Shown here: positions 53,663 through 64,000 of the stretch, piece after piece
Layout: every line of letters starts with the position of its first letter
Numbering within the stretch: the stretch's first letter is position 1
DNA from: Lysobacteraceae bacterium SCN 69-320
Lineage (GTDB): Bacteria; Pseudomonadota; Gammaproteobacteria; Xanthomonadales; Rhodanobacteraceae
Direction: 5' to 3'
DNA length: 64,000 nt
NCBI GenBank assembly: GCA_001725155.1
Contig: MEFP01000012.1
Span: forward strand, 1 to 64,000
Program-made: the position numbers and the translations under genes
Notes under the pieces: model-generated
Seen by the model: the letters and a program-made list of their open reading frames with translations, nothing else
The model's database searches: none
Told to the model about the DNA's origin: nothing

Positions 53663-54064
53663 ATGAAGAAAGCCCGCGTCGCGACCGTCGTCTCCACGCC
53701 AACCGACTATGCGCACCGCATCCAGGCCGGTCGCTACGACCTCGTCGCCGACGAGCCGCCGGCTCTCGGCGGGCAGGGCGCCGGGCCGGCGCCGTTCGAT
53801 CTCTACCTCGCCTCGCTCGCCGCCTGCACCGCGATCACGCTGCGCATGTACGCGCAGCGCAAGGGCTGGGATCTCGGCGAGTTCCGCGCCGAACTGCAGC
53901 TGTCCGTCGACGAGGACGGCAAGGTGCACGTGCATCGCCTGCTGCATGCGGAACGGCCGCTCAGCGACGCGCAGTGGCAGCGGCTGCTGGAGATCGTCGC
54001 GAACACGCCGGTGACCAAGGCCATGCGCGAAGGCGCGACGATCACGAGCGAACGCGGCGCCTGA
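53663..54064 (+). CDS. OsmC-like peroxiredoxin family protein
   Basis: The 133-residue protein has the OsmC core: YDLVADEPPALGGQGAGPAP, FDLYLASLAACTAITLRMYA with the peroxidatic Cys54, and VANTPVTKAMREGATI near the C-terminus. The second, resolving Cys of classical OsmC is absent, as in the TPVTK-type subfamily. It may reduce organic peroxides with another thiol partner. It follows pirin and may share its LysR control. Confidence 0.93.
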   Translation: MKKARVATVVSTPTDYAHRIQAGRYDLVADEPPALGGQGAGPAPFDLYLASLAACTAITLRMYAQRKGWDLGEFRAELQLSVDEDGKVHVHRLLHAERPLSDAQWQRLLEIVANTPVTKAMREGATITSERGA

Positions 54065-54234
54065 CGCGCGCGCCGCCGTCCTGTTCGGTCGGCGCCGGCG
54101 GCGACGTTCCTACCGACCTGACGCGGCGCAGCCCGCTGCGGCTGGCGCGGCGGCAGTCGTGCCGGATACCCTAGCGGAAGGAACGGCTGCCAGCCCGCGT
54201 TCCCCCGCATCCACTCGCCGATTCGACGGACAGT

Positions 54235-56268
54235 ATGAGCGTAGCAGGCGCGCGGCAGACGAGTTCCATCCGCTACAGCTTCGCCGACGTGGTCATCGAA
54301 CCCGAAGGCCGCCGCATCTTCGTCGGCGCGCGCGAACGGGCGGCTTCGCGCCGCGCGTTCGATCTGCTGCTGGCCCTGTGCGAGGCGCCCGGCCGCGTGC
54401 TGTCGCGCGACGAGCTCAGTGACCGGCTCTGGCCCGGCGGTCAGATCGTCTCCGACGAAGCCTTGACCCAGGCCATCTTCCGCGCGCGCGCCGTGCTCGG
54501 CGCGCAGGGCGAGCGCATCGTGACCCTGCGCGGCGTCGGCATCCGCTTCGACGCCGAGGTGCAGCGCGAGGCGCTGGCCGCGGCGTCGCCGGCGATGGCT
54601 GAATCTGCGGCAGCGCCGGTGATGCCGGTCGCGGCCGCTGCCGCTGCCGCGCCGCCGGATGCGGGCGCCGTCGTCGCCTCCGCCGATTTCGCCGCACGCG
54701 CCGCCGAGCCGGATCCGCGCGAAGGCGCCGCCGCCCCGGCCGCCGTCACCGAAATGCCGGTTGCGGCTGCGCCGACGCTCACCGCGGCAGCGGCGATTGC
54801 CGCCTCACCGCCGATCGCCGTTTCACCGGTTGATCGGGCCCCGCCGGTTGTCGAGCCGGCGCCGGTCGCCGCCGCGCCCCGGCGGTCGCCGCTGCCGCTC
54901 GTTGCGCTGGCGGCGCTCGTGCTGGTCGCCGCGGCGTTCGCACTCTGGCGCTGGTCGCTGTCGGGCAGCCAGTGGGTGGACCAGGGCTACGGCATCCGCG
55001 CCGCCGACGTGCACCCGGCGCAGTCCGACAGCCTGCGTCTGCTCGGCGAGGCCATACGCCACGACAACCGCGGCGACCGCGCACGTGCGCGGGCGTTGCT
55101 CGAAGCGCTCAACGACAGCGACGCGCAGACTCCGTGGCCGCCGCTGCTGCTCTCGCTCTGGTCGACCGGCGCCGGCAATGCGGCCGACGCCGAGCGCTGG
55201 CTCGCACGGGCCGCCGAGCGCGCCCAGCCGCTGCGCGATCCCTACGTCAACGCGATGCTGCGCTACGTCCAGGCCGAACGCGACGGCAGCGCGGCCGACA
55301 TCATCCGCTACGCCGGCGCCGTGCTCGATCTGCGCACCGACGCCTGGCGCATGCACCTGGCCCGCGCGCACCTGAAGCACTACCAGGGGCTGCGCGAGGC
55401 GGCGCTCGAGGAGATCCGCCAGATCGGCGCGTTCGAGCTCGGCAACCGCAAGCTCGAGGCCGCGCTGGCCGACCGCGCGTCGTTCGGCGACGTGGCCGGC
55501 GCCCAGGCCGTGCTCGACGGCCTGGCGCGCACCGGCGATGCGGCGGCCTGGGACTACCTGGCCGGCCGCATCAGCTGGAGCCGCGGCGACGCGGCCGCCG
55601 CGCGCGCCGCCTGGGAACGCGCCGCCGACGAGGCGCAGCGCAACGGTCGCAGCGACATCGGCAACCGCGCACGGGCCAATGCCGGCCTGGCCGCGACCCT
55701 GGCCGGCGACCACGCCGGTGCGATCGCGCATTTCGAGCGCGCCCGCGTCGGCATGGCCGACGCCGGCTGGATCACCGACGAGATCGACCTGTCCCTGCTG
55801 CTGGCGCAGCTGCAGATGGCCGAAGGCCACGCCGCGCTGGCCCGGCGCGAATTCGACCGCGCTGTCGCGGTCGCCCGGCACGGCGGCGATGCGACCCTGG
55901 ACAGCCTGATCGGCCTGATCGGCGCGCGCCTGTTTCCGGAGCAGGCGCCGGCTGCGGCGGCCGAAGTGCCGGCGGTGCAGTCGCTGGCCGAGGCACGCGC
56001 CGCCTACAACCGCGGCGACCGCGCCGCGGCCCGGACCGAGCTGGCCGTGGCGCGCCAGCGCGGCGTGCTGGATCTGCCGTTCGCCGACGAGGCGCGCCTG
56101 CTTGCCGCCGAACTGGGCGAGCCGGTCGCTGCGGAAAAAGCGCTGGACCCGCCGTATCCGCCGCTGGCCGTGGCCGGCGCGCGGCTCTCGCTGGCCGCGC
56201 TGCAGGGGCGCCCGGCCGCGCCGCGCACGGCGCCGGCCGGCGCCGCGGCAGATGCTCCGGCACACTGA
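54235..56268 (+). CDS. CadC-like membrane-anchored winged-helix regulator with TPR-like domain
   Basis: The 677-residue protein has an OmpR/CadC-type DNA-binding domain (about 12-108; RAFDLLLALCEAPGRVLSRD, LSDRLWPGG, RAVLGAQGERIVTLRGVG), a long Ala/Pro linker (about 112-215), one membrane helix (219-239) and a periplasmic region of TPR-like helical repeats (about 265-640). It should sense something in the periplasm and control transcription directly. Its place before a globin and a redox cyclase suggests a link to respiration or oxidative stress. Confidence 0.9.
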   Translation: MSVAGARQTSSIRYSFADVVIEPEGRRIFVGARERAASRRAFDLLLALCEAPGRVLSRDELSDRLWPGGQIVSDEALTQAIFRARAVLGAQGERIVTLRGVGIRFDAEVQREALAAASPAMAESAAAPVMPVAAAAAAAPPDAGAVVASADFAARAAEPDPREGAAAPAAVTEMPVAAAPTLTAAAAIAASPPIAVSPVDRAPPVVEPAPVAAAPRRSPLPLVALAALVLVAAAFALWRWSLSGSQWVDQGYGIRAADVHPAQSDSLRLLGEAIRHDNRGDRARARALLEALNDSDAQTPWPPLLLSLWSTGAGNAADAERWLARAAERAQPLRDPYVNAMLRYVQAERDGSAADIIRYAGAVLDLRTDAWRMHLARAHLKHYQGLREAALEEIRQIGAFELGNRKLEAALADRASFGDVAGAQAVLDGLARTGDAAAWDYLAGRISWSRGDAAAARAAWERAADEAQRNGRSDIGNRARANAGLAATLAGDHAGAIAHFERARVGMADAGWITDEIDLSLLLAQLQMAEGHAALARREFDRAVAVARHGGDATLDSLIGLIGARLFPEQAPAAAAEVPAVQSLAEARAAYNRGDRAAARTELAVARQRGVLDLPFADEARLLAAELGEPVAAEKALDPPYPPLAVAGARLSLAALQGRPAAPRTAPAGAAADAPAH

Positions 56269-56419
56269 TCCGAAACGAAATAATGCACGCGTAGCACTGA
56301 CGTCAGGCAGGCGCGCCGCGGCCAACCCAGACTCTGCGCCACCGTCCGCCGGCCTGCTGCCGGCGGAAATGGCGCAGGCAGGCAAGGCTCGCTCGCTGGG
56401 GCCGACAGGAGGCGATGAC

Positions 56420-56836
56420 ATGTACGATCTGGACATACAACGGGTGCGCGAAAGCTATGCGGCGATCGGCGATGGCAGCGGCCTGGGCCAGCGCTTCTAT
56501 GCGCAGTTGTTCCGCCTGCGGCCCGACGCGCGCGCGCTGTTCCCGGTCGACCTGGACCAGCAGGTGCACAAGCTCATCGACATGCTCGCATCCATCGTGC
56601 GCGCCCTCGACGCGCCGGCCCAGCTCGCGCGCGACTTCGCCGAACTCGGCCGCCGCCACCTGGGCTACGGCGTCAGCGAAGAGGACTACGACGACGTCGG
56701 CGCGGCCCTGCTGATGGCCCTGCGCGAACAGCTCGGCACGGCGTTCACGCCGGAGATCGAGCAGGCCTGGGCGACGCTGTACGGCGATCTGGCCGAGGCC
56801 ATGATCGCGGCCGAGAACGCGGCGCAGGACGCGTAG
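56420..56836 (+). CDS. Single-domain globin, first copy
   Basis: The 138-residue protein is a flavohaemoglobin-type globin domain without reductase. AELGRRHLGYGV puts proximal haem His at residue 80, and the E-helix (DQQVHKLIDMLASIV) supplies the distal side. A perfect AGGAGG lies 7 bases before the ATG. It lies upstream of the ferredoxin-cyclase gene with a matching second globin on the other side. Likely roles are O2/NO binding or sensing. Confidence 0.92.
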   Translation: MYDLDIQRVRESYAAIGDGSGLGQRFYAQLFRLRPDARALFPVDLDQQVHKLIDMLASIVRALDAPAQLARDFAELGRRHLGYGVSEEDYDDVGAALLMALREQLGTAFTPEIEQAWATLYGDLAEAMIAAENAAQDA

Positions 56837-56904
56837 CGCCAGTAGCCGGCCGCCGTACCGGTCCGCCCGCGGCGATGCCGGCTTCAGCCGACGCGGCCGC
56901 GCCA

Positions 56905-57350
56905 TCCGGCGGACGCCGCCAGCGCGCCGCGAGCAGCGGCAACAGCCGCAGGTTCAGCAGGGTCGAGGAGATCAGTCCGCCGAGCAGCACGATGGTCATC
57001 GGGCCTTCGATCTCGCGGACGGCTTCGCCGTTGCCCCAGGCCAGCGGCAGTACGCAGTGCGGTCACGAGAGCGGTCATCAGCACCGGCGTCAGGCGTTCG
57101 TGCGCGCCGCGCAGTGCCGTCGTCAGGTTCCAGACGGCACTGCGCGGACGACCAGACAGTCGAAATGCGCGGTCCGCATGATGCCGTTGCGCGCGCTGAC
57201 GCCGAACCGCGCGACGAAACCGGCCAGGGTGCCCATCGGCAGTCCGATGCCGCCGAGCAGCGCGAAGGCAGTTCGCCAGGATCGGCAGCACGCTGCGCGC
57301 GCGGCCGAAGCTGAGCCCGGGCAGCGCGGCGATGCCCAGTGCGGCCAGTG
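56905..57350 (-). pseudogene. Decayed CusA/CzcA-type RND efflux pump, C-terminal remnant
   Basis: Fragments in three frames read in order as one RND pump: LSFGRARSVLPILAN; FALLGGIGLPMGTLAGFVAR then FGVSARNGIM; TTALRGAHERLTPVLMTALV; LPLAWGNGEAVREIEGPMT; IVLLGGLISSTLLNLRLLPL. At least three single-base shifts (near 57265, 57145 and 57050) and loss of the first ~800 residues make it non-functional. It lies antisense between globin and cyclase genes. Confidence 0.75.
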
Positions 57351-57601
57351 TCGAAGGGCTCGGCAGGTCGCGTCGCGGCGTCGCCGGTTCCGCCGAAATC
57401 CCGATACGGACCCGCAGGCGGCGCCAGCCGGGCGGTGAGCAGGGTACGCGCCGCTTCGGTGAATCCGGCCGCGCCGCGTTCGGCCGGATGGGCGGTGATG
57501 ACCTGGCGCCGGAGATCGCGCTGCGGCGGCTGACCGGAGCGACGTCGGCGCCGCGGCCGCGGCGTATGCTGCACGGCATTGCTCGCGCAGCCGTGGCGGT
57601 C

Positions 57602-58522
57602 ATGAGCCGGATCCGCATCCTTCCCGACGACGTGGAGATCGAGGCCCTGCCCGGCGAGACCGTGCTCGCGGCCGCCCTGCGCGCCGGGGTGCCGCATCTG
57701 CATCTGTGCGGCGGCAACGCGCATTGCTCGACCTGCCGCATCGAACTGCGCGAGGGCGCCGACCAGTGCGCGCCGCAGACCGCGGCCGAGCAGCGCATCG
57801 CGCAGCGGCTGCATTTCCAGCCCGGCCTGCGCCTGGCCTGCCAGACCGTCGTGCAGGGACCGATGACGGTACGCCGCCTCGTGCTCGACGCGCACGACGC
57901 GCGGCTCGTCGACCAGCGCGGGCGCGCGGCCGCGGAGGCCAGCGTCGGCGAGGAACGCCGGCTCGCGATCCTGTTCGCCGACATCCGCGGCTTCACCGCG
58001 TTTTCCGAGCGTCTGCCGCCGTATGACGTGATCCACGTGCTCAACCGCTATTTCCATGCGGCCGGCGAAGTCATTGCGCGCTACGGCGGGCGCATCGACA
58101 ACTACATGGGCGACGGCTTCATGGCGCTGTTCGGCCTGGGCGACGAGGACGCGCCGGCGTGTCTGCGCGCGGTCAGCGCCGGGCTCGCGCTGATCGACGC
58201 GGTCGCCGCGCTGCAGCCGTATCTGCTCACCGCGTTCGGCGAAGGCTTCGGCATCGGCGTCGGCATCCACTACGGCTGCGCCGTGGTCGGCAGCGTCGGC
58301 GCGGCCGGCAACGAGCGCGTGACCGCGATCGGCGACGCGGTCAATCTCGCCAGCCGCATCGAGGAAGCCAACAAGCGCTTCGGCACGCAGCTGCTGATTT
58401 CGGCGCAGACCTGGGCGCAGGTCGCCGAACAGGTTCAGATCGGGGCGATTCACGAGACCGCGCTGGCCGGCAAGAGCGGCAGCTACCGCCTGTTCGAAGT
58501 GCGCGGCCTGCGTGCCGGTTGA
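57602..58522 (+). CDS. [2Fe-2S] ferredoxin domain fused to adenylate/guanylate cyclase
   Basis: The 306-residue protein has a plant-type ferredoxin domain (1-95) with Cys36, Cys42, Cys45 and Cys80 (LCGGNAHCSTC, RLACQ), followed by a class III cyclase (about 118-300): LAILFADIRGFTAF with metal Asp127 and NYMGDGFMALFG with Asp171. The iron-sulfur part should make cyclic nucleotide output depend on redox state. ATG 57602 is chosen; ATG 57566 is also possible. The 3' end is convergent with a globin gene, 97 bases away. Confidence 0.94.
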   Translation: MSRIRILPDDVEIEALPGETVLAAALRAGVPHLHLCGGNAHCSTCRIELREGADQCAPQTAAEQRIAQRLHFQPGLRLACQTVVQGPMTVRRLVLDAHDARLVDQRGRAAAEASVGEERRLAILFADIRGFTAFSERLPPYDVIHVLNRYFHAAGEVIARYGGRIDNYMGDGFMALFGLGDEDAPACLRAVSAGLALIDAVAALQPYLLTAFGEGFGIGVGIHYGCAVVGSVGAAGNERVTAIGDAVNLASRIEEANKRFGTQLLISAQTWAQVAEQVQIGAIHETALAGKSGSYRLFEVRGLRAG

Positions 58523-58619
58523 ACGACCGTGCCGCGTCGGCTTCGATGGCTGGCCGGACAGCCGGTCCGCGGGCGCCTGACGCGCCCCGGCCGACAGATC
58601 CGTGAATCCCTGCGGCCGC

Positions 58620-59066
58620 TCAGGCCGCCGCGGCGAAGCAGCGCTGCATCGTCGCGGCGACGCCGCCGTACAGCGTGGCCCAGGCCGTGTGCGCGGCATC
58701 GTCGAATGCCGCGCCGAGACGCGCGGCCAGGGTGTCGAGCAGCGCCGCGCCGACGACGGCGTAGTGATGGCTCTGCACCTGGTAGCCCGCATGGCGCTGG
58801 CCCAGATTCGCCAGCGGTCCGGCCAGTTGTTCGGGGCGGTCCAGTCCGGCGATCAGCATGCTCAGCATGCGCACGAGCTTGGCGCGCTGCTCGGCCAGAT
58901 CGTTGCCGAACATCGGCCGCACCTGCGGCGCAAGCGTGAACAGGCGTGCGTAGAAATCCGCCGCAAAGCCGTCGGCGTCGCCGGCGATCATGGCGAAGTT
59001 GGCGCGGATCAGCGCGATCGAAGCCGGGTCCAGCCAGGCGACCGGCGCGGTGGTGGAAAGAGTCAT
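58620..59066 (-). CDS. Single-domain globin, second copy
   Basis: The 148-residue globin has proximal His92 in NLGQRHAGYQV, matching the first copy in layout (ALLDTLAARLGAAF versus LLMALREQLGTAF) but quite diverged. AAGGA lies 8 bases before ATG 59066. It faces the cyclase gene. The pair of globins around one redox cyclase suggests joint gas and redox sensing rather than simple duplication. Confidence 0.92.
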   Translation of the reverse strand: MTLSTTAPVAWLDPASIALIRANFAMIAGDADGFAADFYARLFTLAPQVRPMFGNDLAEQRAKLVRMLSMLIAGLDRPEQLAGPLANLGQRHAGYQVQSHHYAVVGAALLDTLAARLGAAFDDAAHTAWATLYGGVAATMQRCFAAAA

Positions 59067-59441
59067 CGGAGTTCCTTCAGTCAGCAAGGGAAGGGCGGCA
59101 GCCTCGACCCGCAGCGGCAGAGGCCGCGCAGGGCGCGCATGCGCAGGGCAGGTGCCGGCGCCGCAGCGTCGGGGTAGCTGCGGCGCCGGCGATGTCGGCG
59201 ACGGTCGTTGGGGGTGATCACCGACGGGGAGCAGTGTCCGCAGCGCGTTCCCTGGCTGCCTGACGACAATCCGCCGGCAGCGTTATCGGATCATTTTTAT
59301 TCGTCGCCTCAGTCGCTTGGTGCGCTTGATGCTGTCGTCGACGACGATGGTGCGGGCGCGGAGCAGGCGGCGATGCGCGGCGAATGAGGGGATTGCGCCG
59401 CGGCACTGGCGCATTGGCATCGCCGCCCGCCGTCGCGCCCG
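59067..59441. other. Intergenic region, no gene supported
   Basis: These 375 bases hold the promoter of the second globin gene. Close to the secreted-protein end there is a minus-strand frame LRARTIVVDDSIKRTKRLRR... of about 35 residues that is charged and helical-looking but has no start or context. An AT-rich patch (ATCATTTTTATTCG, 59288-59301) interrupts the GC-rich DNA. Confidence 0.45.
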
Positions 59442-60786: not shown

Positions 60787-60936
60787 CGGCTCGAAATCGC
60801 CGGCGAAGATCGCATCGGCTTCGATCGCGCCGATGCTCACCGCCGCGCCGGACGTGCGCGTATGGCCTTCGGTATCGAAGGTGCCAGAACTGCCGGGCGG
60901 ATCGGCCACGCCGCTGTCGATCAGGATGGACTCGTG
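60787..60936 (-). pseudogene. 3' remnant of a secreted repeat (CSLREA/beta-helix-type) protein gene
   Basis: A minus-strand frame reads SILIDSGVADPPGSSG, then AAVSIGAIEADAIFAGDFEP, matching the last residues of right-handed beta-helix surface proteins whose end is usually GAIE-x-DxIFxxGFE. No start, no upstream repeats and no stop at the usual place remain. It is a short relic between the tandem-domain protein and the CHAT gene. Confidence 0.55.
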
Positions 60937-61149
60937 GCCCGGACCAGGCCGGTCAGGCGCGCAGGAACGTGCCGCGGCGGCGGGATGGACGAGGCGACAT
61001 GGGCAGTGCGAACGGGCGCCGGAGCGGCGCGGACGGAGCGCACTGCCCCGATCCGCCGCCGCGGCTGCCTTGACCGCAACGCAACGGCACCCTCTTTGCT
61101 CCCGTGTCGCCGGACCTGGCATCGGCCCCAGGTCCGGCGCAGGCACCCG

Positions 61150-64000
61150 TCAGCGCTCGGTGGAATCGCCGCGCGGTCCGGACTTCTTGGCTGCCGGGCG
61201 GCGCCGCGCCGGCGCGGCGGATTTGCCGCGTGCCGGCGGCGTACCGGTAGCCGCCTGGCCGCGGCGGGACGCGGCGGCCGTCCTGGGCGCCGCTGCGGCG
61301 GGCGTCGCTGCGGCTGCCCCGGTCGCTGCAGCGTCCGTGTCAGGCGGGGGCGGCGGCATGCCGGGCAGGGCGGCTTCCTCCATGGCTTGCCGCAGCTGCC
61401 GCCAGTGCGCATGACGCTCCGTCGGCGCGCGAGTCAGACAGAATCCGGCGAACTCGTACCAGAAGCGGTTGTAAGTGCCGATCGTCTCGCGCTCGGCCGC
61501 CGTCGCCGTCACCGCCATCGCACTGCGGTATTCGACCGCGATCCTGCGCGCTTCGGCGAGATAGGCCGCAGGGTCTTCCAGTGTCGTCTCGCGCGGACTG
61601 ACCAGCAGCAACAGGCGTTGGTCGGCGGAATCCACGTCGTCCCAGAATTCGTGGGCGGCCTCGCGCGTCTTCAGGCGCTCGCGGCAGATCCCGACGGCCG
61701 CCGCATAGGACCGGTTGAGCGCGTCGTAGAGCCGGAGCAGATCGGCCTGGAGGTCGACCTTGCCGAGCCCATCGCCGACGATCAGCGCGCCGAGAGCTTT
61801 CTGCAGGTGCTCGGTCGACAGCGTCTCCAGGTCGACATTGTCGCCGCGGAGACAGGCGACGCAGGACAGTCCCCGGAACACGCCCTCGATCATGCCGTTC
61901 AGTGCAGCGAGCGCGGACGCCACATCCCCGCCGCATCGCAGCTGGAACAGGCGCCGGTAGTTGGTGCCCAGGGCGAACCACGTGGTCGCGCCACGCTCCA
62001 CGTCGGCGAATGCGCGCAGACGCCGCATGCTTTCTTCGCAGCGGTCGATCGCTTGTTTCCGCAGCGTTTCATTCCCGTCGCGAAGACGGTCCGGCGCCGC
62101 GCGCAGCGCCAGGCGGGCATGGGTGCGCCAGAGTATCGGCGGCAGGGACTTCTGCGCGGCTATGCGTTGCTCGATCAGCGCCAGCGCCGGTTCGTAGTCG
62201 CCGACGTGCTCCAGCGCCTTGACCGCCGCCAGGCAGCAGCCCTCGTCGCCGAGCAGGTCTGCGTGGTTGCGCAGATCGCGCGCGATACGCGCGGCGATCT
62301 GCCGGGTCCGCTGCGGACTCGCGCCCATGGCCGAGACGGCGAGCGCATCGAGGGAACAGGCCAGTTCGTTCGCCGAGATGAACCGTGCCGGGCCGTCAGG
62401 CGCCTCGCCGCGCCGCGCCGCATAGCGCACGTCGCCGTAACACTGATAGGCGCCCCAGGTCGTCGTGCGTTCGCCGTGCAGACGGTAGGTCAGCGCGCGT
62501 GCGGCGCGCACCGCGTCGATGTAGATCATGCCGCGGTCGACCAGCGCCGCGTAGAACTCGCGCGAGAAGCATTGCGCCGCATCGTCGTCGACGGCCCAGC
62601 CGGCCGCGACGACGGCGCGGCAGCCGATGTCCATGAACACGTTGGCGAGATTGCTCGCCAGTCGCGGAGCGTCCAGGGCGATGCCGACCTCGCGGCCCAG
62701 GTGGCAGCAGTTGATGAACACGAGCTCCGGCACGACGTCGACGCATTCGCGCACGTCTTCGGGCGTCAGCAGCAGCAGATGGCGTTCGCCGCCGTCGGCG
62801 GGGTCTTCAGCGGAACCGCTCGGTTCCTTGACCGGCAGGCTGCCGATGACCATGCCGGTGCGAACCGGCGCATCCTTGTCCGCCAGCGGTGAGCGGTAGT
62901 CGACCACGCCGTGGCCGGCGAAATGGATGATGCGGTAGGGCCTCTTGCCGAGTTCGTCGCGTATCTTCAGCGCGTCGAAATTCGGCAGATAGTTCACCTC
63001 GAAGCCGGCCTCCGTCAGCGCCTCGCTGACGGCTTCCGCCTCGTGTCGGGCACCGTCCAGGTACGGCAGGCCCGGTACGTCCCAGCGCCCGACGACCAGC
63101 GCGGTGTTCTGCGCCACGCGTTCGCGCGCCGTGTAGCCGCGCCGGCGCAGCTGACGCATCATGCCGGCCCGCACGGACAGCGGCAGGTCGCCGCCGGCGT
63201 CGGCGAGCTCCCAGGGCAGGCTCGCCGCGCTTTCGTTCAAGGTCAGCAGCAGGTCGTACTGTTCCAGCGCGAAGCGCTTGAGTTCCAGCGGCAGCAGCTG
63301 CTGGAACAGCACGCGGCCCAGCGTCGCGTCGGTGCTCTGCTGACGGTCGATCTTGCGGGCGTAGGTGCGCACTTCGTCGATGTCGATCGTGCGCTTGTAC
63401 AGCGGGACGGCGGCCTGGATGCCCGGCAGCGCGAAGCGCAAGCGGCCGCCGCTGAGCGCGCGGATGTCCAGGCGGCGCACCGACGAAATGCTGCGCGAGC
63501 CGTCGCGCAGCCGTCGCAGCGAATCATTGCGGCTCTCCATCGGCGGCGTCGGCGCGAGGAAGCGGTGCTGGAATTCACTGCCGTCGATCAGAACCGGCAG
63601 TTCGCTGGCCAGCTCCAGCGCCTTGTCCTCGTAGATCTCGATGATTTCCAGCTCGCGTATGCGCGGTCTGACCAGGGCCGGATTCTCCGGCGCGGGCTGC
63701 GCCGCGAGCACCTTCTGTGCGTCCAGCGCGCCGAGCAGGATCGCGCGCAGGCATTCGGTCACCGTCATGCCGCTGACCGACGAGCCGAGCAGGACGACGC
63801 TGAACGCGCTTTCGCGCTGCTCGGGCGTCAGATCGCTCAAGGTCGTGCCGAACCAGCCGAGCAGGCCGCGCCGCACCGTGCGGCGCAGCTCGCCGACCGA
63901 CAGTTCGCCGGGCGGCCCGAGGCCGATGATGACGGCATACGGCGAGCGGCGGTCGACGGTGATCTGCTGGCGCTTGAACACCTGGAACGTTTCCAGCGGT
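61150..64000 (-). CDS. CHAT-domain protease-like protein, 5' end outside window
   Basis: The frame stays open to the right edge (950 residues visible), so the N-terminus may lie beyond it; GTG 63981 is only a possible start. Counting from there, IIHFAGHGVVD holds catalytic His357 and LVFINCCHLG catalytic Cys426, the caspase-like dyad of CHAT domains (about 290-510); VVAAGWAVDDDAA follows. A helical, TPR-like region runs about 540-860. The last 80 residues are Pro/Ala-rich and basic. CHAT proteins often act in defence or regulated proteolysis; the substrate is not in view. Confidence 0.88.
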   Translation of the reverse strand, partial: PLETFQVFKRQQITVDRRSPYAVIIGLGPPGELSVGELRRTVRRGLLGWFGTTLSDLTPEQRESAFSVVLLGSSVSGMTVTECLRAILLGALDAQKVLAAQPAPENPALVRPRIRELEIIEIYEDKALELASELPVLIDGSEFQHRFLAPTPPMESRNDSLRRLRDGSRSISSVRRLDIRALSGGRLRFALPGIQAAVPLYKRTIDIDEVRTYARKIDRQQSTDATLGRVLFQQLLPLELKRFALEQYDLLLTLNESAASLPWELADAGGDLPLSVRAGMMRQLRRRGYTARERVAQNTALVVGRWDVPGLPYLDGARHEAEAVSEALTEAGFEVNYLPNFDALKIRDELGKRPYRIIHFAGHGVVDYRSPLADKDAPVRTGMVIGSLPVKEPSGSAEDPADGGERHLLLLTPEDVRECVDVVPELVFINCCHLGREVGIALDAPRLASNLANVFMDIGCRAVVAAGWAVDDDAAQCFSREFYAALVDRGMIYIDAVRAARALTYRLHGERTTTWGAYQCYGDVRYAARRGEAPDGPARFISANELACSLDALAVSAMGASPQRTRQIAARIARDLRNHADLLGDEGCCLAAVKALEHVGDYEPALALIEQRIAAQKSLPPILWRTHARLALRAAPDRLRDGNETLRKQAIDRCEESMRRLRAFADVERGATTWFALGTNYRRLFQLRCGGDVASALAALNGMIEGVFRGLSCVACLRGDNVDLETLSTEHLQKALGALIVGDGLGKVDLQADLLRLYDALNRSYAAAVGICRERLKTREAAHEFWDDVDSADQRLLLLVSPRETTLEDPAAYLAEARRIAVEYRSAMAVTATAAERETIGTYNRFWYEFAGFCLTRAPTERHAHWRQLRQAMEEAALPGMPPPPPDTDAAATGAAAATPAAAAPRTAAASRRGQAATGTPPARGKSAAPARRRPAAKKSGPRGDSTER

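Follow-up and report, generated by a model that had tools for sequence, protein, structure and literature searches.

One-component transmembrane regulators of the CadC/ToxR type join a PhoB-type winged helix to one predicted membrane helix and a large C-terminal domain, while the pho boxes bound by PhoB itself are built of 11-bp direct repeats that form tandem PhoB-type sites. To our knowledge, the targets of CadC/ToxR-like regulators are seldom known, and the roles of bacterial single-domain globins are often unclear. Here we describe a locus in a 64,000-nucleotide stretch of Lysobacteraceae bacterium SCN 69-320 (contig MEFP01000012.1, positions 1 to 64,000; hereafter the window) in which the gene for a CadC-like regulator is followed by those for a single-domain globin (globin 1), a nucleotidyl cyclase with an N-terminal ferredoxin domain (Fer2-cyclase) and a second globin (globin 2), and in which copies of one DNA element with an 11-bp period precede both globins. 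An earlier reading of this DNA (the sequence-only reading) had placed these four genes at this site, and all four open reading frames were recovered there with Pfam domains over cut-off. The host belongs to the genus Tahibacter, and its closest named relative is Tahibacter caeni (cyclase 81% identical). With a probability of roughly 60%, we regard the locus as part of a small regulon under a CadC-like protein that comprises globins and secreted proteins, beside which the cyclase has settled.

The regulator carries a Trans_reg_C domain (E=1.4e-13, 51 bits against a Pfam cut-off of 26), and its AlphaFold2 model (mean predicted local distance difference test score, pLDDT, 70) comprises a winged helix, a disordered Ala/Pro-rich linker, a hydrophobic helix at residues 220-243 that is read as the transmembrane helix, and a helical solenoid. 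Foldseek matches include PhoB-pho box complexes and ToxR, with 1gxp and 8b4d among the entries for the winged helix, and the modelled DNA-binding domain is PhoB-like. The C-terminal solenoid resembles TPR proteins in Foldseek and has no Pfam TPR match. The protein resembles CadC/ToxR-like regulators in its winged helix, one predicted membrane helix and large C-terminal domain, and differs from them in the TPR-like nature of that domain and in its partners, which are globins and secreted proteins. By the NCBIfam CadC model it is not a CadC orthologue (31.4 bits against a cut-off of 400). Relatives of the regulator recur across Tahibacter genomes, and other Tahibacter CadC-like regulators (L077, L084) also adjoin genes resembling large secreted proteins.

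Seven intact close orthologues of globin 1 were found, in three families of the order, and every one of them lies downstream of a CadC-like gene (the window, T. caeni, G050, G098, G162, G171 and G163). Among 117 genomes of the family, globin 1 orthologues were detected at E<1e-50 in four, with a fragment in G057; G050, G098 and G065, which corresponds to the T. caeni contig, derive from this family search. G162, G171 and G163 (globin 1 relatives, E 1e-34 to 1e-38) came from a wider sample of 299 genomes drawn from the order, and smaller family searches around G162 (2/3 genomes) and G163 (3/10) gave no additional close copy. The five aligned regulators beside globin 1 orthologues are 38-67% identical to that of the window. 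In T. caeni the regulator gene is split over two contigs and its tail opens the globin contig, so the linkage crosses a contig break.

In G098, G162 and G171 a gene for a secreted beta-helix protein separates regulator from globin, as do two such genes in G050; T. caeni aside, the beta-helix proteins are of the choice-of-anchor Q type in the two that were scanned and scored over cut-off. The T. caeni beta-helix gene is located beyond globin 2, where the window keeps a remnant only, and the window has no such gene between its regulator and globin 1. G163 shows a short open reading frame in place of the beta-helix gene, all that is left in G057 is a remnant in which regulator and globin are joined, and in G091 the order is regulator, element, globin-like reading frame and beta-helix gene. 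The conserved core consists of the regulator and globin 1, mostly with a beta-helix protein. A literature search, limited to openly licensed papers, yielded no paper that we recognised as treating CadC with a globin, Tahibacter or related terms; the available passages of PMC4284462 and PMC8346489 concern other topics. The globin-like reading frame behind the regulator and element of G091 (L158 2779-3231, +) has a Trp aligned with the proximal His, which makes haem binding doubtful.

Comparison of intergenic DNA brought out an element ahead of the two globins of the window, the two of T. caeni and beta-helix genes, with the pattern YTGA-N10-AT-rich core-N16 or N27-TCAGG and an 11-bp period. The first window copy overlaps the stop codon of the regulator gene ahead of globin 1, and the second is located upstream of globin 2. 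Ten sites were aligned into a profile built on sequence only, for which the tool's E-values are rough. At E<=1e-3 it found 12 sites in five of the 117 family genomes: four in the window's own genome (one before each globin and one before each of two beta-helix genes, on C10 and C6), four in T. caeni (likewise both globins and two beta-helix genes), two in G050 (both beta-helix genes), one in G098 (beta-helix gene) and one in G091 (globin-like reading frame). Every one of these sites lies upstream of a globin, globin-like or homologous beta-helix gene. Nine of the 12 had served as training sites; the three held out (own C10, 32.2 bits; own C6, 26.8 bits; T. caeni C349, 31.3 bits), located by the profile with no reference to the genes, all precede homologous beta-helix genes, and two further held-out matches outside the family (L107, 24.4 bits; L108, 19.3 bits) fall in the G171 and G163 loci.

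Exact spacing was found at 14 of 15 sites: YTGA, ten bases, the AT-rich core, a spacer of 16 (four sites) or 27 (ten sites), and TCAGG. The search had permitted ranges of 5-14 and 10-32, so these constants were observed and not forced. Base identity at a distance of 11 exceeds that in composition-preserving shuffles (z=5.5; next-highest among lags 4-19, z=2.4), a z that is overstated because the sites are related. A spacer with two lengths one 11-bp unit apart, together with that period, would be expected of tandem PhoB-type sites, and in its direct repeats and its spacers of 16 and 27 the element resembles a PhoB-type tandem operator. Within Tahibacter, for which eight genomes including the window's own were compared, the element occurs in all four genomes with a regulator match above 250 bits (G000, G065, G050 and G091, each at E<=1e-3) and in none of the four others (Fisher p=0.029 among related genomes).

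The sequence-only reading had also described the globins flanking the cyclase as single-domain and diverged, and both points were borne out. Globin 1 (E=4.4e-14, 53 bits) and globin 2 (E=2e-17, 64 bits) match PF00042 well above its cut-off of 22, are of the single-domain 3/3 type and are 46% identical to each other. Both are stand-alone genes and hence not globin-coupled sensors, in which the globin is fused to an output domain. The nearest solved structures are the Methylacidiphilum infernorum globins HGbI (3s1i) and HGbRL (3wfw), with E values of ~1e-19 to 1e-20; the likeness extends to the PF00042 domain and to Tyr, Gln and His in alignment columns that we take to be B10, E7 and F8, and the proximal His80 is invariant in the globin alignments. 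The window globins differ from HGbI and HGbRL in that they adjoin a membrane regulator and are preceded by a common DNA element. That globin 2 arose by local duplication of globin 1 is less likely, because a globin from another family (G366) is closer to globin 2 by BLAST (54% vs 46%). A further, diverged globin-like reading frame was observed on C10 of the same genome (L154 3152-3556, +; below the Pfam cut-off at E=0.028, and scoring 21 bits with a globin hidden Markov model), convergent with the element-bearing beta-helix gene.

The third protein of the locus begins with a [2Fe-2S] domain of the ferredoxin type, as had been proposed (~residues 1-95; Fer2 E=1.8e-11; Cys 36, 42, 45 and 80), and continues with a catalytic domain (~residues 116-303; Guanylate_cyc PF00211, E=1.3e-18, 67.7 bits against a cut-off of 21.9); the structure model (pLDDT 89) likewise places a class III domain after the ferredoxin domain. 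The class III residues D127 and D171 (metal), N248 and R252 are all present. In catalytic fold, in the two metal-binding Asp and in the Asn/Arg pair, the protein is akin to the class IIIb cyclases Cya2 (2w01), CyaC (1wc1) and CyaB (3r5g), with Foldseek TM-scores by target length of ~0.82-0.89. It differs from them in its N-terminal [2Fe-2S] domain and at the base-selecting position, where it has Asn167 and they show Glu or Lys. Lys at this position selects ATP and Glu selects GTP. The window protein therefore qualifies by this residue as neither an adenylate nor a guanylate cyclase proper, and since the three solved chains have Glu or Lys there, Asn leaves the product not nameable from sequence. 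Asn occupies the position in 48 of 55 aligned rows, Asp in four, and Thr, Lys and Arg in one each.

The ferredoxin part resembles ISC-type [2Fe-2S] ferredoxins such as E. coli Fdx (1i7h) in its CX5CX2C...C arrangement, with a match at residues 5-85; in contrast to Fdx, it falls short of the TIGR02007 cut-off (36 against 132) and is fused to a cyclase. C42, C45 and C80 are present in 53 of the 55 rows and C36 in 52, the remainder being gaps, and the four cysteines are retained in every complete copy of the ferredoxin domain. A scan of species genomes identified at least 52 ferredoxin-type loci besides the window, in several phyla, and the Fer2-cyclases form a candidate family of redox-gated cyclases; no paper on ferredoxin-type cyclases was recognised among openly licensed papers, which does not imply their absence in print. 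Between the window and T. caeni, the ratio of nonsynonymous to synonymous substitution (omega) of the cyclase is 0.07 by YN00 (pirin 0.075) and 0.34 by NG86 (pirin 0.26), and that of its ferredoxin part lies above the whole-protein value (0.14 and 0.48, respectively). Low ratios near those of pirin indicate that the cyclase is still constrained and speak against simple decay. The T. caeni protein, the only other Tahibacter copy, carries D171N at the metal-binding position (one assembly).

Among the 117 family genomes, the cyclase was found in two, the window's own and T. caeni. The scan of species genomes gave at least 54 loci, made up of T. caeni, 51 with a ferredoxin domain and two without (L054, L056). 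No globin was detected beside the cyclase at the 53 loci other than T. caeni (tblastn and hidden Markov model searches of up to 8 kb on each side, less at contig ends). PF00042 was absent from 24 and present in nine of the 33 genomes searched out of the 51 with a Fer2-cyclase, several of which are metagenome-assembled. Clustering of reading frames within 4.5 kb of the cyclase, in search of common neighbours, returned clusters mostly among close relatives and a few small mixed ones. The sparse distribution is the main basis on which we consider that the cyclase was probably gained by horizontal transfer. Vertical inheritance was set aside, as the tree does not unite the Tahibacter pair with L047, the other copy of the order, although L047 forms a long, unresolved branch. 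The cyclase looks like a late, optional neighbour of the regulator-globin set.

These distributions bear on the proposal, made in the sequence-only reading, that the four proteins form one pathway in which the globins and the Fe-S cluster sense O2, NO or redox state, the cyclase in turn produces cAMP or cGMP and transcription is altered through the regulator. The four genes lie side by side in two species, purifying selection on the cyclase resembles that on pirin, its cysteines are kept where the domain is complete, and the genome has 16 matches to cyclic-nucleotide-binding domains, all of which would suit such a pathway. However, co-occurrence of the four genes is confined to the window and T. 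caeni (two of eight Tahibacter and two of 117 family genomes), five of the seven genomes with regulator and globin 1 lack the cyclase, the T. caeni enzyme has Asn in place of a metal-binding Asp, and globin 2 is convergent with the cyclase. On the sparse occurrence of the cyclase and the lack of a globin at its 53 other scanned loci, the four-gene pathway is rejected as a conserved unit, and we regard a pathway of this kind as very improbable. What stands of the idea that the genes are linked in one system is the pairing of regulator and globin and the element before both globins, which may put three of the four genes under common control; a route through the cyclase is not supported. The regulator-globin link is real, of another kind than first proposed, and as far as the element indicates it is transcriptional.

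In the regulon that we favour, a CadC/ToxR-like membrane regulator would head a small set of targets, of which this locus is one branch. We infer direct DNA binding, periplasmic sensing and the functions of globins and cyclase as follows. The TPR-like domain, presumably periplasmic, would sense a signal, and the PhoB-type winged helix would bind the array of 11-bp direct repeats; binding would activate the genes for secreted beta-helix proteins and for single-domain globins, with globin 2 driven through its own copy of the element. The globins would most likely handle O2 or NO as products of the regulon, not feeding the cyclase. Being convergent, the cyclase and globin 2 genes cannot share one operon, while the T. 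caeni cyclase, which starts ~80 bp past globin 1, may share the globin 1 transcript. In the window this gap is 765 bp and holds a transporter gene fragment on the other strand, which is lacking in T. caeni.

Several observations weigh against this regulon. No CadC-like gene adjoins any of eight more distant globins (a partial relative lies ~5 kb away in L115), the C6 beta-helix gene has no regulator in the stretch read, and G163 deviates from the exact element pattern. The regulator was scored within Tahibacter, beta-helix genes were counted only where the element is present, and the sites are related, so that z and p overstate their independence. Moreover, the beta-helix genes are homologous, and their shared upstream DNA may in part reflect common descent. 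This last point also favours the notion that the element serves another sigma factor as promoter, or was carried along upstream of beta-helix duplicates, and is unrelated to the CadC-like regulator. The scan for sigma-70-type promoters in 54000-59300 says little here (0 found, 0.2 expected), nor do terminators (0 found, 1.2 expected), since zero counts are uninformative at so low an expectation. Yet the element also precedes two globins of only 46% identity, its two spacer lengths are exactly 11 bp apart in an otherwise constant layout with an 11-bp period, as for tandem winged-helix sites, and an Rfam scan gave no family at gathering threshold; such an origin seems unlikely to us. A different protein could also read the repeats: if the element were a Pho box, PhoB and not the CadC-like protein would control the genes under phosphate shortage. 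The repeats do resemble pho boxes, the winged helix of the regulator has PhoB as one of its closest structural matches, and the strongest of the sub-threshold sites (20.7 bits, E=0.0026; G036, L128 ~1500-1560, +), itself a further point against the regulon, lies just upstream of a PhoB-like response regulator gene and keeps this rival alive. PhoB is expected in all Tahibacter genomes, whereas strong sites track the CadC-like orthologue (4/4 against 0/4), and control by PhoB is accordingly improbable.

Should the CadC-like regulon hold, bacterial single-domain globins would stand under a membrane sensor together with secreted proteins, in a circuit of the one-component ToxR-like type. One genome offers a nameable regulator, an explicit element and four candidate targets (globin 1, globin 2 and the C10 and C6 beta-helix genes). 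A more elaborate version seems quite unlikely. In it, a membrane regulator/haem-protein module made up of regulator and globin would link a signal in the periplasm to secreted beta-helix proteins and O2/NO handling, and a [2Fe-2S]-gated cyclase, whose Asn at the base-selecting position possibly implies a product other than cAMP/cGMP, would have been recruited into the same transcript in two Tahibacter species.

The coordinates of all features are collected in Table 1. The transporter gene fragment between globin 1 and the cyclase shows only ~67-81% DNA identity to short stretches elsewhere in the same genome. Comparison of the locus with PHROGs added nothing further. A gene for a CHAT-domain protein of 943 aa (61150-63981, -) adjoins the locus.

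Table 1 Features of the regulator-globin locus in window coordinates.
Feature	Position	Strand	Evidence
CadC-like regulator	54235..56268	+	Pfam Trans_reg_C, AlphaFold2, Foldseek, orthologues beside globin 1 relatives
DNA element 1, short form N16	56263..56334	+	Profile match 48.8 bits, E=3.2e-12 (own genome); training site
Single-domain globin 1, 138 aa, Tyr27 Gln48 His80	56420..56836	+	PF00042, alignments
Decayed RND-type transporter gene fragment	56861..57590	-	tblastx to own-genome RND-like loci L102, L104, L105
Ferredoxin/class III nucleotidyl cyclase, 306 aa	57602..58522	+	Pfam Fer2 and Guanylate_cyc, residues, model, Foldseek
Single-domain globin 2, 148 aa	58620..59066	-	PF00042; T. caeni orthologue ~91% identical
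DNA element 2, long form N27	59240..59313	-	Profile match 52.0 bits, E=3.2e-13 (own genome); training site
Secreted beta-helix gene remnant	60790..61091	-	blastn, tblastn; whole in T. caeni (L003 3936-5189)

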